Part shown: one piece after another, positions 1,307-64,000 of the stretch
Layout of the letters: each line of letters begins with the position of its first letter
How positions within the stretch are numbered: the stretch's first letter is position 1
Source: Asanoa ferruginea
GTDB taxonomy: Bacteria; Actinomycetota; Actinomycetes; Mycobacteriales; Micromonosporaceae
Length of the DNA stretch: 64,000 nucleotides
Direction: 5' to 3'
NCBI RefSeq assembly: GCF_003387075.1
Contig: NZ_QUMQ01000001.1
Location: forward strand, 5,208,001-5,272,000
The notes under the pieces: generated by a model
What the model saw: the letters and a program-made list of their open reading frames with translations, nothing else
What the model was told of the DNA's origin: nothing
Database searches by the model: none
Program-made: the position numbers and the translations under genes

Positions 1307-2571
1307 TGGCACACTTCGGAGCCGTGCCCGACTTCATCGCCGTCGCCCCGCTGACCGCACCGCTCGACGCGACCGTGCGTCCGCCGGGCTCGAAGAGCAT
1401 CACCAACCGGGCGCTGCTGTGCGCCGCGCTGGCGCCGGGCACCTCGACGCTCACCGGCGCCCTGTTCGCCGACGACACCCGGGCGATGCTGGGCGCGATC
1501 GCCGCGCTCGGCGCCACGGTCGAGGCCGACCCGGCGGCCGCGACGGTCACCGTGGCCGGGGTGGATCCGCGCGCCGGCCGGTCCGACGCCGTGGTCGACG
1601 CCCGCTACTCCGGCACCACGTCGCGGTTCATCCTGCCGGCGGCCGCACTGCGGCCCGGCCGCACGGTGGTCGACGGCACGCCGCAGTTGCGGGCCCGCCC
1701 GTTCGGGCCGGTGCTCGACGCCCTGCGCGACCTCGGCGCTCTCGTATCAGCGAATGGCTTCCTGCCAGCGACGGTCAGCGGCCCGTTGCGGGGCGGACCG
1801 GTCCGGCTCAGCGGCCACATCTCCAGCCAGTTCCTGTCCGGGCTGCTGATGGCCGGCCCGCTGATGACCGACGGCCTGTCCGTCGAGCTCACGTCCCCGC
1901 TGGTGTCGGTGCCCTACGTGGAGATGACCAAGGCGGTCATGGCGGCCTTCGGGGTCACCGTCGACGGGCTCGAGGTGGCGCCCGGCTCCTACCGCGCGAC
2001 CGACTACGCCGTGGAGCCCGACGCGAGCGCGGCGTCCTACTTCCTGGGCGCGGCCGCGATCGCCGGCGGCACGGTGACCGTGCGCGGCCTCGGCACCGGC
2101 AGCCTGCAGGGTGACGTCGGCTTCGCCGACGTGCTCGAGCGGATGGGCGCCAAGGTCTCCCGGACGGCCGACTCGCTGACGGTCAGCGGCGGAGGCACCC
2201 TGACCGGCGTCGACGTCGACATGGCTGACATCTCGGATACGGCCCAGACGCTGGCCGCGGTCGCCGTGTTCGCCGATTCGCCGACCCGGGTGCGCGGGAT
2301 CGGCTTCATCCGCGGCAAGGAGACCAACCGGGTCGCCGCGGTGGTGACCGAGTTGCGCCGGGCCGGCATCGACGCCGTGGAAGACGCCGACGGCTTCACG
2401 ATCCATCCGGGCCCGCCGCGACCGACCCGCTTCGCGACGTACGATGATCATCGGATGGCGATGAGCCTGTCGCTGCTGGGCCTGCGCGCGCCGGGCATCG
2501 AGATCGCCGACCCGGGTTGCGTCGCCAAGACCTACCCGGACTTCTTCTCGGCACTTGCCGCGCTGTCCTGA
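1306..2571 (+). CDS. aroA: 3-phosphoshikimate 1-carboxyvinyltransferase (EPSP synthase)
   Basis: Sixth step of the shikimate pathway: joins shikimate-3-phosphate and phosphoenolpyruvate to EPSP in the cytoplasm. The protein has 421 residues, the usual size. The N-terminal substrate motif PPGSKSITNR is at residues 26-35, the YSGTTSRF segment stands for the conserved aGTt.R region, and GKETNR and YDDHRMAMS near the C-terminus are family hallmarks. The start overlaps the P450 stop. A GTG at 1324 is a possible alternative start. The pairing with a P450 is unusual, but the gene itself looks like housekeeping aromatic biosynthesis. Confidence 0.95.
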   Translation: MAHFGAVPDFIAVAPLTAPLDATVRPPGSKSITNRALLCAALAPGTSTLTGALFADDTRAMLGAIAALGATVEADPAAATVTVAGVDPRAGRSDAVVDARYSGTTSRFILPAAALRPGRTVVDGTPQLRARPFGPVLDALRDLGALVSANGFLPATVSGPLRGGPVRLSGHISSQFLSGLLMAGPLMTDGLSVELTSPLVSVPYVEMTKAVMAAFGVTVDGLEVAPGSYRATDYAVEPDASAASYFLGAAAIAGGTVTVRGLGTGSLQGDVGFADVLERMGAKVSRTADSLTVSGGGTLTGVDVDMADISDTAQTLAAVAVFADSPTRVRGIGFIRGKETNRVAAVVTELRRAGIDAVEDADGFTIHPGPPRPTRFATYDDHRMAMSLSLLGLRAPGIEIADPGCVAKTYPDFFSALAALS

Positions 2572-60100: not shown

Positions 60101-60568
60101 ATGCGGCTTCTGATGGCTGGCACCGTGGAACGTGTGGTCGTGCTGTTCGGTTCGGAGGTCGATCCTGATCCGGAGCTGACCTGGGCGCGCGGGATAACGC
60201 TCGTCGGTGACGACGGCACCGAGGTGGATCAACCTGGGCCGTTTGGCGTCGTCGGCTGGTCGGTCGCCGGGCTGGATGCGTTGGCGTTCGCCGCTCGTCA
60301 CCCCGGGCTGGTGGATCGACTCGCATTGGTCGCGACCCCGATCCCGGACGACGAGGCCGCGCTGGGGTTCGAACTGTCCGACATCACCGCCAAGACCTTG
60401 CTGCTGTTCGGCGCCAAGGACCCGCTGACCGGCTCCCGGCATGGCACCTGGTGGCAGCGGCGACTACCCGACGCGCGGCTGGAGATATACCCGCAAGGCG
60501 GGCATGACCTGCTGGTGCCCGCCTGGAAACGGACCCTGTCCCACCTCGCCCCGCACTGCAAGCGCTAG
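60101..60568 (+). CDS. Small alpha/beta-hydrolase
   Basis: A 155-residue compact hydrolase. The nucleophile elbow GWSVAG is near 52, an acid residue lies in LFGAKDPLTG and the base in QGGHDLL, so the triad is complete although the protein is much shorter than usual (230-300 residues); it lacks a cap and the N-terminal HGGG strand region is minimal. An ATG at 60113 is a possible alternative start. Its last 4 bases overlap the end of the convergent MFS gene. Substrate unknown. Confidence 0.75.
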   Translation: MRLLMAGTVERVVVLFGSEVDPDPELTWARGITLVGDDGTEVDQPGPFGVVGWSVAGLDALAFAARHPGLVDRLALVATPIPDDEAALGFELSDITAKTLLLFGAKDPLTGSRHGTWWQRRLPDARLEIYPQGGHDLLVPAWKRTLSHLAPHCKR

Positions 60569-61806
60569 TCGACCGCGAGGCGTAGCCCGCGCACAGGTGA
60601 GGCATAGACCAGGACGATGCTCAGCGCGGCCGGCACTGCCAGCAGCAGGTAGGCGGTCCGGACGCCGTAGGCGTCGGCACTCAGACCGCCGAGCAGAGCG
60701 CCGAACGGGGTGCCGCCCCAGGCGAGCATGCGTCCGGTGGTGTTGACCCGGCCCTGCAACTCGTCGGGCGTGAGCAACTGCCGCACCGTGATGCCGTTCG
60801 CGTTCACCGCGAGCCGGGCCACCGACCAGATCCACCACACACCGAGTGCCAGGATGAACGTCGACGTGCCGGCCAGGCCGACCACGGCCGCCACGAACAG
60901 GACCAGCCCGCCGAGCGACACCAGGCCCTGACCGGCCCAGCGGCTGACCCGGGGGAGGATGACGGCGGCGACCAGCGCGCCGACCGCTCCGGCGGCGTAG
61001 AGCAGGCCCAGGCGCTTGTCTTCCGAGCTCAGGCCCAAGGCCTGGTCGGCGTGCACGACGAGCAGGCCCAGCACGCCGCCGACCCCCACGTTGAGGCCGA
61101 AGCCGGCGGCGGTGAGGGTGCGCAGGACCGGCGTACGCCAGAGGTAGCGGAGCCCTTCGGCGATCTCGGCGGTCAGCTTCCGGGCCACGGTCGGGCCGGT
61201 GTCCAGCGGCGTCCGGATTCCGGCCAGCAGCACGGCCGACGCCAGGTAGGTGGCGGCGTCCGCGGCCAGGACCAGGCTCGGATCGGCGAGCGCGGCCAGC
61301 AGTCCGGCGGCAGCCGGTGCGGCGATCTCCAGCACTATCTCGGTTGTCCAGATGACGCTGTTGGCCCGGGTGACCCGGGACCGGCCGACCACGCGGACGA
61401 AGGCGCCCCAGGCCGCCGCGTCGAACCAGCAGAAGCCGCAGCCGACGCCGAACGCCACGAGCAGCACGTGCCAGGACGCGAGCGCGTCGAACGCCGCGGC
61501 GACCGGGACGGTGACGAGCAGCAGGGCGCAGCAGATGTCTGCGGCGATCATCATGCGTTTGCGCCGCAGCCGGTCGGCGGCGGCGCCGGCGAAGAGGCCG
61601 AACAGCAGGTAGGGCAGGGCTTCCAGGCCGACCACGGCGGCGGTCAGCGCCGGGGACGCGCTCGTGCGGTAGACCAGCAGCGGCAGGGCGACGGCGCTGG
61701 CGGCGGTGCCGGCGATGGAGATGGACCGGGCGAGATACCAGCGGGTGAAGTCGTGGTCGAACAGCCGGCGCCTTTCGACGCCGGCTGTCTCGATGCTTGG
61801 GGTCAC
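60565..61806 (-). CDS. MFS exporter of the RiPP-like operon
   Basis: A 413-residue major facilitator with 12 hydrophobic segments, of the MFS_3/enterobactin-exporter type: LARSISIAGTAASAVALPLLV, AADRLRRKRMMIAADI as the loop 2-3 motif A and WWIWSVARLAVNANGITVRQ. The GTG start at 61806 overlaps the stop of the Cys/His-rich peptide gene (61803-61806), so the two are translated together. By position it would export, or give immunity to, the modified peptide made with the YcaO enzyme. Confidence 0.9.
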   Translation of the reverse strand: MTPSIETAGVERRRLFDHDFTRWYLARSISIAGTAASAVALPLLVYRTSASPALTAAVVGLEALPYLLFGLFAGAAADRLRRKRMMIAADICCALLLVTVPVAAAFDALASWHVLLVAFGVGCGFCWFDAAAWGAFVRVVGRSRVTRANSVIWTTEIVLEIAAPAAAGLLAALADPSLVLAADAATYLASAVLLAGIRTPLDTGPTVARKLTAEIAEGLRYLWRTPVLRTLTAAGFGLNVGVGGVLGLLVVHADQALGLSSEDKRLGLLYAAGAVGALVAAVILPRVSRWAGQGLVSLGGLVLFVAAVVGLAGTSTFILALGVWWIWSVARLAVNANGITVRQLLTPDELQGRVNTTGRMLAWGGTPFGALLGGLSADAYGVRTAYLLLAVPAALSIVLVYASPVRGLRLAVD

Positions 61807-62075
61807 GGTGTGAGCGTCGCGAGGTGCCGCTCGTCGATGCCGGTGAGGGCGAGGTGCAGGTCGACGGCCAGGTCGTTGTCGGCCGGGTGGTAGCAGCAGT
61901 TGACGTCGTCGGAGGGGTGGAAGCAGCCGGCGCCGTTGCCGGGTTCGGCCGCGTGGTGGCAGAGGTTCACGCCGGCGTCCTCGCCGGGATGGAAGCACGG
62001 CGAGACGGAACCGCCGCGCAGAGATGGCTGGTCGGCCGGGTGGAAGCAGAAGAAGGCTTCGCCGCGTTTGAACAT
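61803..62075 (-). CDS. Candidate multicore RiPP precursor, Cys/His-rich
   Basis: A 90-residue peptide with no homologue that I know. It has five copies of C-[FYH]-H-[PA]-[AGS]-[DE], at residues 10-15 (CFHPAD), 27-32 (CFHPGE), 39-44 (CHHAAE), 51-56 (CFHPSD) and 61-66 (CYHPAD). All six Cys lie at 10-61. The N-terminus before the first copy is just 9 residues; the Cys-free tail 67-90 (AVDLHLALTGIDERHLATL) could be an amphipathic helix. It follows a YcaO gene by 33 bases and overlaps the exporter gene. GAGGAG lies 5 bases before ATG 62075. A metal-binding peptide is the main alternative. Confidence 0.7.
   Translation of the reverse strand: MFKRGEAFFCFHPADQPSLRGGSVSPCFHPGEDAGVNLCHHAAEPGNGAGCFHPSDDVNCCYHPADNDLAVDLHLALTGIDERHLATLTP
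61878..62048 (-). repeat. Five CxHP-type core repeats
   Basis: Motif copies on the minus strand: 62048-62031, 61997-61980, 61961-61944, 61925-61908 and 61895-61878. Start-to-start spacing is 17, 12, 12 and 10 residues. Only Cys, the second His and a small residue plus acid after it are fixed; copy 3 swaps Phe for His and Pro for Ala. Confidence 0.85.
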
Positions 62076-62108
62076 GTTTCTCCTCGTCTCAAAGCGTTGG
62101 ACGGTTGC

Positions 62109-63257
62109 TCAGCCGACCGGTGCCGGCCAGAGGTGCCACCCCCTTCCGGTGGGTATGACGGGCACGCCGTGCCGCACCAGGCTGAAGCGCTCCAGGCCCG
62201 GCGCGATCGTGGTGGCCACGGCGATCAGTGAGTCAACCGGCGCGACCTCGCACACGTGAAACCCGACGCCGCGCCGAGCCAACGCCTGCCGGACCTGGTC
62301 GAGCCCCCATGACGGGCTCCCGTCTCCCGCCGGGTCGGCGCGCAACGGCACTGAACGTGACCGCAGCCCGTCGAGCGGCATGGCCGCACACCGCTGCAAC
62401 GCCGGCCACCCCGCGAGCCGTTCGACCGCACTCGACGAGGCCGACGACGGCAGCGTGCACGACTGGATCAGCTCGCCGAGAGCGCGCTCCGCCGCATCCG
62501 TCGCCCAGATGGAGGCGCCGGCACCGAACCCGCCCGCCCCGCTGACCGCGAGGTAGACCGGGACGTCCAGGTCGGTCGTGACGTCGAGCAGCCGCACGGG
62601 CGAACCGGCCGCGCGCGTGGCCTGCTCGTGCAGCGGGCGCAATCCGGCCGGCAGGTCCACGACGTCGACATCCGGTACGCCGGACACATACCAGCGCAGC
62701 AGTGCCTGCCCCAGCCCGTCATGCTCGATGAGCTCGCACAAGCCGTGGTAGACGGCCTCGTCGAGGTCGCTGCCCGCCGCGGTGCCCAGGCTCGACGAGT
62801 AGCGCAGCAGGCTCCGGTAGGGCCGCACGTCATCACCGGGTGCCGGCCACCGGTAGTAGCGCGGGTCGGCGAGGAACGTGGGATAACGAACGCCGCCGTA
62901 GGAGGCGCACGCCGCCATCGCGGAAGGAAACTCCGCCGCCCACCGCTGCACGACCCGATCGGCGGCCAGTGCGGGTTGCTCCGCCACCGTGGAAGACGCC
63001 AGCACCTCGAAAGCGGCCCACCGCCGGTTGTCCCGGGCCGACATCAGATAACGCTCGAGCGCCTCGAAGTGGGCGCTCGCCGCACCTTGCGCACCCGCGC
63101 CCTTGCCGGCACCGACCGCGACCGGCTGGCTCCCGCGCGACAGCGTGACCCGCATCGTGGTGTCGAAGACCTCCGCGTGCGGCACCAGGCCGAGCCGGTC
63201 GATTTCGGCCGACGCGGTGGCGAGAGCACGCTCGGCGGGCACGGATCGAAACGGCAC
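62109..63257 (-). CDS. Stand-alone YcaO-family enzyme
   Basis: A 382-residue YcaO protein. YcaO enzymes use ATP to activate a peptide amide and install azolines, thioamides or amidines. Visible motifs: VGAGKGAGAQGAASAHFEALERY-type ATP site (GKG at 51-53, E65, E68), SSSLGTAAGSDLDEA at 154-168 and ELIEHDGL with E175, E178, D180. The C-terminus reads HLWPAPVG, a short form of the Pro-rich tail of cyclodehydratases. No E1-like/Ocin-ThiF partner or dehydrogenase is nearby. GTG start with AAGGGGAA upstream. First gene of the YcaO-peptide-MFS operon. Confidence 0.88.
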   Translation of the reverse strand: MPFRSVPAERALATASAEIDRLGLVPHAEVFDTTMRVTLSRGSQPVAVGAGKGAGAQGAASAHFEALERYLMSARDNRRWAAFEVLASSTVAEQPALAADRVVQRWAAEFPSAMAACASYGGVRYPTFLADPRYYRWPAPGDDVRPYRSLLRYSSSLGTAAGSDLDEAVYHGLCELIEHDGLGQALLRWYVSGVPDVDVVDLPAGLRPLHEQATRAAGSPVRLLDVTTDLDVPVYLAVSGAGGFGAGASIWATDAAERALGELIQSCTLPSSASSSAVERLAGWPALQRCAAMPLDGLRSRSVPLRADPAGDGSPSWGLDQVRQALARRGVGFHVCEVAPVDSLIAVATTIAPGLERFSLVRHGVPVIPTGRGWHLWPAPVG

Positions 63258-63345
63258 GGATTCCCCTTCAATGCGGGGACTGCGGTCGACTGTGGACAGT
63301 GTCAGCCTCGATCCCCGCTGTCAAGACCCGTGATAGAAAGGCCTG

Positions 63346-64000
63346 ATGGACCGAACCACAAACCCCTTCGCCGACCTCGACGCGTACGTCCGGCTGCCCA
63401 GGTTGGGTGGTTTGTGGCTTTCGCCCGACGGGCGCCGGCTCGTCGTCGCCGTGGCGACACCGGATCGCAAGAACACCCGCTACAGCACGGCCTTGTGGGA
63501 GGTCGACCCCGAAGGGGAGCGGCCCGCGCGCCGGCTGACCCGCAGCGGCAAGGGTGAGTCGGCCGCCGCCTTCACACCCGCCGGCGACCTGTTGTTCACC
63601 TCGGCCCGGCCGGACCCGGACGGCGACGACGACGAGGAGCCACGGGCCGCGCTCTGGCTGCAACCGGCCGGCGGCGGCGACGCCCGGGTGATCGCCAACC
63701 CGCCCGGCGGCGTGCGCGGCGTGGTGGTCAGCGAGACCGGGACGCTCGTGGCCGGTTCGATGCTGTTGCCGGCATCGGCCGACCCGGCCGCCGACAAAGA
63801 TGCCCGCAAGCAGCGCAAGGACACCGGGACCGCGGCGATCCTGCACGAGGAATACCCGATCCGCTTCTGGGACCACGACCTCGGCCCCGACCGCCCCCGC
63901 CTGCTGACCGCCAACGTGGCCGGCGACGACGATCTCGAGTTGCGCGACCTCACCGGCCACGCCGGCCGCGCCCTCGACGGCGACCCCGACTGGGATCTCG
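63346..64000 (+). CDS. S9-family peptidase, N-terminal part (runs off the window)
   Basis: The first 218 residues of a prolyl-oligopeptidase-like protein; the gene is open at the window edge. It starts MDRTTNPFADLDAYVRLPRL and shows beta-propeller blades (LWLSPDGRRLVVAVATPD, AAAFTPAGDLLFTSARPD) and HEEYPIRFWDHDLG, as in S9C acylaminoacyl-peptidase-type enzymes. The catalytic hydrolase domain lies beyond the window. It is divergent from the YcaO operon with an 88-base gap. A role in trimming the peptide is possible but not shown. Confidence 0.85.
   Translation, partial: MDRTTNPFADLDAYVRLPRLGGLWLSPDGRRLVVAVATPDRKNTRYSTALWEVDPEGERPARRLTRSGKGESAAAFTPAGDLLFTSARPDPDGDDDEEPRAALWLQPAGGGDARVIANPPGGVRGVVVSETGTLVAGSMLLPASADPAADKDARKQRKDTGTAAILHEEYPIRFWDHDLGPDRPRLLTANVAGDDDLELRDLTGHAGRALDGDPDWDL

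Follow-up and report, generated by a model that had tools for sequence, protein, structure and literature searches.

A YcaO operon with a repeat-built peptide in Asanoa ferruginea as a candidate multicore precursor system

What does a stand-alone YcaO enzyme act on when the next gene encodes a short peptide built of cysteine-containing repeats? The question is raised by three genes in the window, i.e., the 64,000-nucleotide stretch of the Asanoa ferruginea genome analysed here (contig NZ_QUMQ01000001.1): ycaO, a gene for a 90-residue peptide, and a gene for a transporter of the major facilitator superfamily (MFS). Most stand-alone YcaOs of actinobacteria are described as being of unknown function in a mining study that reports many peptide networks (PMC8442711), and the operon gives one clade of these enzymes a substrate candidate. 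The peptide is very probably the precursor of a ribosomally synthesised and posttranslationally modified peptide (RiPP) of some kind, and the operon with its repeat-built precursor probably represents an uncharacterised family of peptide natural products. With a confidence only a little above even, we read it as a multicore RiPP pathway in which a follower-guided YcaO forms thiazolines at the core cysteines and the MFS protein exports the products.

The three genes lie on the same strand, as the initial annotation had it, with a gap of 33 bases between ycaO and the peptide gene (62076-62108) and an overlap of 4 bases between the peptide and MFS genes (61803-61806) (Table 1). The ycaO product (P0002) matches PF02624 with an E value of 2.6e-29, above the gathering score, and has a confidently modelled YcaO fold, which together uphold its identification; a first structure model made from a 10-row alignment was poor (predicted local distance difference test score, 57.3) and was set aside. 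The genome (9.07 Mb, single contig) has no other PF02624 match. The best structural matches are stand-alone YcaOs by VIA-align and LynD by Foldseek, and the sequences FEALER and CELIEHD line up with motifs of LynD and MJ1094; the enzyme bears a GKG motif and two acidic helix motifs of the ExxE type. Gly51, Lys52, Gly53, Glu65, Glu68, Glu175, and Glu178 are invariant in an alignment of 10 rows, and in a 50-row alignment Glu65, Glu175, and Glu178 are kept throughout and Lys52 in at least 90% of the rows. The third product matches PF07690 (E = 2.4e-25), which bears out the presence of an exporter-like gene, presumably acting outward. It also matches PF05977 (E = 1.3e-22) and TIGR00900, the latter at an E value of 1.7e-53 yet below the cut-off of that model; it is 78-82% identical in seven relatives, and no PDB sequence matched it at 0.001.

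All five motif copies first reported for the peptide (P0001) are present (cores 1 to 5 in Table 1), and when its 90 residues were shuffled 100,000 times, three C[FYH]H[PA] copies were never reached (maximum, two). No Pfam or NCBIfam model matched it up to an E value of 10, a range in which the HMMER filters remove the majority of matches beyond roughly 0.1; the NCBIfam matches listed include none to the bottromycin-type precursor model NF033414, which may or may not be in the library copy used.

The window YcaO was matched in 21 of 354 genomes of the family at an E value of ≤1e-15, and in 11 of these at ≤1e-70. Ten of the 11 have the peptide, which in the nine genomes other than the window's lies at the equivalent place. 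The eleventh, G229, holds a decayed copy of the operon, i.e., a deletion remnant (L052:8930-9979) in which residues 1-252 of ycaO (about two-thirds) are fused, with a change of frame, to the final 63 residues of the MFS protein, the peptide gene having been lost. A profile built from the ten peptides, with 12 candidates scored per genome, matched 13 of the 354 genomes at 0.001. Ten matches had E values of 1.7e-14 or better and recover themselves by construction, as the profile was made from them; the three weak ones (G104, G121, and G014; 5.9e-5 to 8.6e-4) were left out of the count, no CxH repeats being seen in them. All ten strong matches adjoin a window-type ycaO, no further strong match was found away from a YcaO in this search, and the peptide therefore does not occur mostly apart from such an enzyme. 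Nine of the ten genomes with the peptide keep the order YcaO-peptide-MFS (the window's, G206, G217, G275, G138, G262, G266, G268, and G025); in the tenth, G002 of the window's genus, ycaO and the peptide gene overlap by 4 bases.

Beyond these genomes, a YcaO profile applied at 1e-25 to a sample of 394 genomes of the class gave matches in seven, the window's own and six that belong to a single other family; no Cys-repeat peptide was recognised beside the YcaO in those six. Nor was one recognised among the same-strand open reading frames (ORFs) around the distant YcaOs of G495, G655, G762, G605, G270, G347, and G011. Among plasmids, one from Streptomyces carries a 32%-identical YcaO and gave no peptide match.

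The cores vary in number and sequence around a largely kept Cys. Each of the ten peptides has from 1 to 6 core Cys; their 36 Cys residues make 33 sites (three are CC doublets), and none lies outside a core-like site. The residue after Cys is Phe at 23 sites, Arg at 6, His at 2, and Tyr and Leu at 1 each; the second is His at 24, Thr at 4, Arg at 3, and Asn at 2; and the third is Pro at 23, Ala at 5, Ser at 3, and Thr and Gly at 1 each. The fifth is Asp or Glu at 26 of the 33 sites. The six cores of G025, the only genome reached by a search around its genus, are CRTA (three times), CRNS (twice), and CRTG, and their flanks GVNLC, GSVSAC, and VNMC match GVNLC and GSVSPC of the window peptide. Because these cores differ inside matching flanks, Cys and what precedes it are held while the residues after it are exchanged, and CxHP, which the initial annotation took as the defining core, was rejected as such. 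The multicore precursor that it placed beside the YcaO is supported by the ten adjacent pairs, the Cys cores, and the conserved tail described below.

The same data bear on whether the peptide might instead be a small protein that stays unmodified and binds metal through CxHP Cys/His ligands or acts in regulation, the YcaO having another substrate. The frequent His at the second and Asp or Glu at the fifth position after Cys suit metal ligands, and the sole YcaO of the genome could serve elsewhere. Against this stand the six core Cys of G025, none followed by His at the second position, the range in core number, and the lack of strong peptide matches away from window-type YcaOs in the 354 genomes, within the limits of that search; we consider such a protein very unlikely. 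Metal binding through Cys/His, which the initial annotation thought possible, is not supported as obligatory, because the G025 cores keep Cys without His; five N-terminal copies elsewhere have no Cys.

The best-conserved part in the alignment of the ten peptides is the C-terminal tail, and no conserved leader was seen in it. Over 21 pairs of seven genomes, G138 and six from the genus group of Micromonospora, the median ratio of nonsynonymous to synonymous substitution rates is 0.29 for YcaO, 0.23 for the MFS protein (sequence taken from an internal motif onward), and 0.62 for the peptide as a whole; the last 25 peptide codons give 0.35 (20 pairs). In the multicore thiazoline pathway, the YcaO would recognise the 90-residue precursor through this tail, a putative follower, and would spend ATP on activating the backbone carbonyl before each core Cys. 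Ring closure at each of these Cys residues would give a thiazoline, proteases from outside the operon would cut between the cores, and the MFS protein would export the small products.

Thiazolines are preferred here over the products of other YcaO reactions because the Cys is kept, TfuA is absent, and bottromycin provides a precedent, in which one YcaO converts Cys to thiazoline without a partner protein (PMC8442711). The peptide may still be a multicore precursor on which the YcaO installs thioamides or amidines instead, which we hold to be rather unlikely. No PF07812 match for a TfuA partner was found in the window genome (G000) at an E value of 0.001, and no AmiB-like partner is seen, as no other gene is conserved beside the operon; the Cys kept in G025 despite the changed residues after it suits chemistry at Cys. 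Among solved structures, VIA-align places methanogen YcaOs nearest, enzymes that are linked to thioamidation, and this weighs against the thiazoline reading.

Relatives of the enzyme offer a further comparison. In a tree of 50 YcaOs, the nine CFHP-type enzymes form a group (100/99), G025 stands beside it (99/96), and nine further enzymes make up a sister group (100/99); the placement of G270 and other long branches is uncertain. In eight of the nine sister genomes (G631, G695, G952, G947, G917, G816, G942, and G376), ycaO is preceded by a short gene whose product consists of [MV]GNSN[SP]NG and a tail such as EDNFSVTLSERVLLDQFF; no such peptide was found on the right strand in the ninth, G908. 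An MFS gene follows ycaO in all four sister genomes checked, G631 and G695 by Pfam and G376 and G908 by eye. The sister clade likely uses a different reaction or target residue, and its peptides, with the core at the N terminus, may form a RiPP family of their own. A motif common to the tails of both clades was too weak to claim. No description of the CxHP or MGNSNSNG peptides was recognised in the literature searched, and they may figure, unnamed, among the networks in the supplement to PMC8442711. Near two other stand-alone YcaOs (L108 and L109), short frames end in AQHL[ST]xxExxLLAxLLA and are possibly another precursor group. In G270 (L054:8600-11027), two adjacent YcaO-like genes are followed by a gene that by eye resembles a B12-binding radical S-adenosylmethionine enzyme.

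Besides the methanogen structures, several observations weigh against the multicore thiazoline pathway. The presence of Cys at 33 of 33 sites is partly a matter of definition, as the sites were chosen by their Cys. A search for [FLYH][HR][PAST][GASD] without the Cys condition found 32 core-like copies, 27 with Cys; the first copies (residue 7) of G217, G275, G138, G262, and G268 carry Arg, Ser, Pro, Phe, or His where the others have Cys. With the six of G025, all bearing Cys, 33 of 38 core-like copies have it. Strict invariance of Cys was thus rejected, some N-terminal copies seem to have decayed, and counting the five copies lowered our confidence in the pathway slightly. Six of the eight sister-clade peptides have no Cys, so that this type of YcaO is not tied to Cys chemistry. 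The tail of the G025 peptide fits badly into the alignment, so that the case for a follower is weaker in this member. No MFS match was found in the 16-kb region of G002 that was covered. As to partners, the lack of a TIGR03605 match for a SagB-type dehydrogenase in the window genome at 0.001 speaks for the pathway, and no E1-like partner is encoded in the cluster (whole-genome TIGR03882 search; Ocin-ThiF models were not searched); the single weak TIGR03882 match (39.3 bits against a cut-off of 36.9, with an internal stop, 2.0 Mb away) leaves the partner independence of the YcaO unproven.

The comparison of the flanks, made with ORFs of at least 80 codons and high G+C content at third codon positions, showed no conserved protease gene beside the operon and no further gene common to the relatives. 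The YcaO itself might cut the precursor as an ATP-dependent peptidase (cf. the title of the MusD structure), enzyme and peptide alone releasing the cores. We give this little credence: the fold match is not specific to peptidase activity, as all YcaOs among the matches listed have it, and thiovarsolin, whose cluster has no specific protease, is assumed to use endogenous peptidases (PMC6511847).

The putative promoter elements upstream of ycaO are given in Table 1; TTGACA precedes ycaO in nine of 11 rows of the upstream alignment read by eye, G002 and G025 lacking it. Metal regulation was dropped as a candidate, as this alignment showed by eye the promoter-like TTGACA and no palindrome (no regulator search was made). 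A divergent gene beside ycaO (63346-64000), S9-type peptidase-like by eye and cut by the window end, was not among the window ORFs matched in relatives. In G002 (L025:4682-6372), an array of 17 tRNA genes begins shortly after the ycaO-peptide pair and shares its strand; such an array is uncommon in chromosomes and recalls mobile elements.

Table 1. Features of the operon (window positions) and short peptide genes of the sister clade (positions in the named loci).
Feature	Position	Strand	Basis or remark
ycaO, stand-alone YcaO enzyme, 382 residues, GTG start	62109..63257	-	PF02624 match
Candidate multicore precursor peptide gene, 90 residues	61803..62075	-	Reading frame and homologues at equivalent place
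MFS transporter gene, 413 residues, proposed exporter	60565..61806	-	PF07690 and PF05977 matches
GAGGAG, ribosome-binding-site-like, ahead of peptide ATG	62080..62085	-	Sequence
TTGACA, -35-like, upstream of ycaO	63319..63324	-	Upstream alignment, by eye
CACTGT, -10-like, 17-base spacing from TTGACA (counted by hand)	63296..63301	-	Relatives have CACAGT or similar
Core 1, CFHPAD, residues 10-15	62031..62048	-	
Core 2, CFHPGE, residues 27-32	61980..61997	-	
Core 3, CHHAAE, residues 39-44	61944..61961	-	GVNL directly before; GVNLC also at a G025 CRTA core
Core 4, CFHPSD, residues 51-56	61908..61925	-	
Core 5, CYHPAD, residues 61-66	61878..61895	-	Cys is the second of a CC doublet
Conserved C-terminal tail, residues 68-90, proposed follower (recognition element)	61806..61874	-	Near-invariant columns
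Sister-clade short peptide gene	L078:9160-9300	+	
Sister-clade short peptide gene	L053:8350-8493	+	
Sister-clade short peptide gene	L079:10869-11021	-	
Sister-clade short peptide genes	L086-L090, near 1352-1495	+	

If the multicore thiazoline pathway is correct, two proteins, the YcaO and the peptide, suffice for several C-terminally guided Cys-heterocycle peptides per gene. The operon would then be a compact test case for substrate choice by a stand-alone YcaO without a recognition domain or partner, and the natural exchange of FHP for RTA shows positions that the enzyme tolerates. A wider idea, distinctly unlikely as a whole, is that of a minimal, reprogrammable RiPP system, in which a leader-independent, follower-guided YcaO would modify Cys in any number of cores and release them, the residues after Cys being swapped (FHPG, HHAA, RTAG, and RNSA) with no change in the type of enzyme; the sister clade, with its N-terminal MGNSN[SP]NG core, would be a second chemistry on one YcaO-MFS-follower platform.

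Among known systems, the cyanobactin heterocyclases LynD and TruD, in which a recognition domain is fused to the enzyme and which work with leader peptides, are 20-21% identical to the window YcaO. The bottromycin precursor is of the follower type, as is proposed here, but holds a single core, and its pathway employs two YcaOs and many tailoring enzymes, whereas the window system has several cores and one YcaO. A further likeness lies in the stand-alone YcaO, which in bottromycin biosynthesis makes a thiazoline from Cys with no partner (PMC8442711). The streptamidine family (Network 1) likewise combines an actinobacterial stand-alone YcaO with a short peptide, whose motifs occur one to three times, but its peptides are without Ser/Thr/Cys-rich regions and its pathway uses AmiB and other genes (PMC8442711). 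The closest known architecture is that of the thiovarsolin pathway, which shares an actinobacterial YcaO, imperfect core repeats of varying number (from none to five by species in that pathway), and an MFS gene (PMC6511847). Thiovarsolin is made by a YcaO-TfuA system from VarA, which has a leader, with further cluster enzymes (PMC6511847), whereas the window system has no TfuA match in its genome, bears Cys in its cores, and keeps a conserved C-terminal tail.
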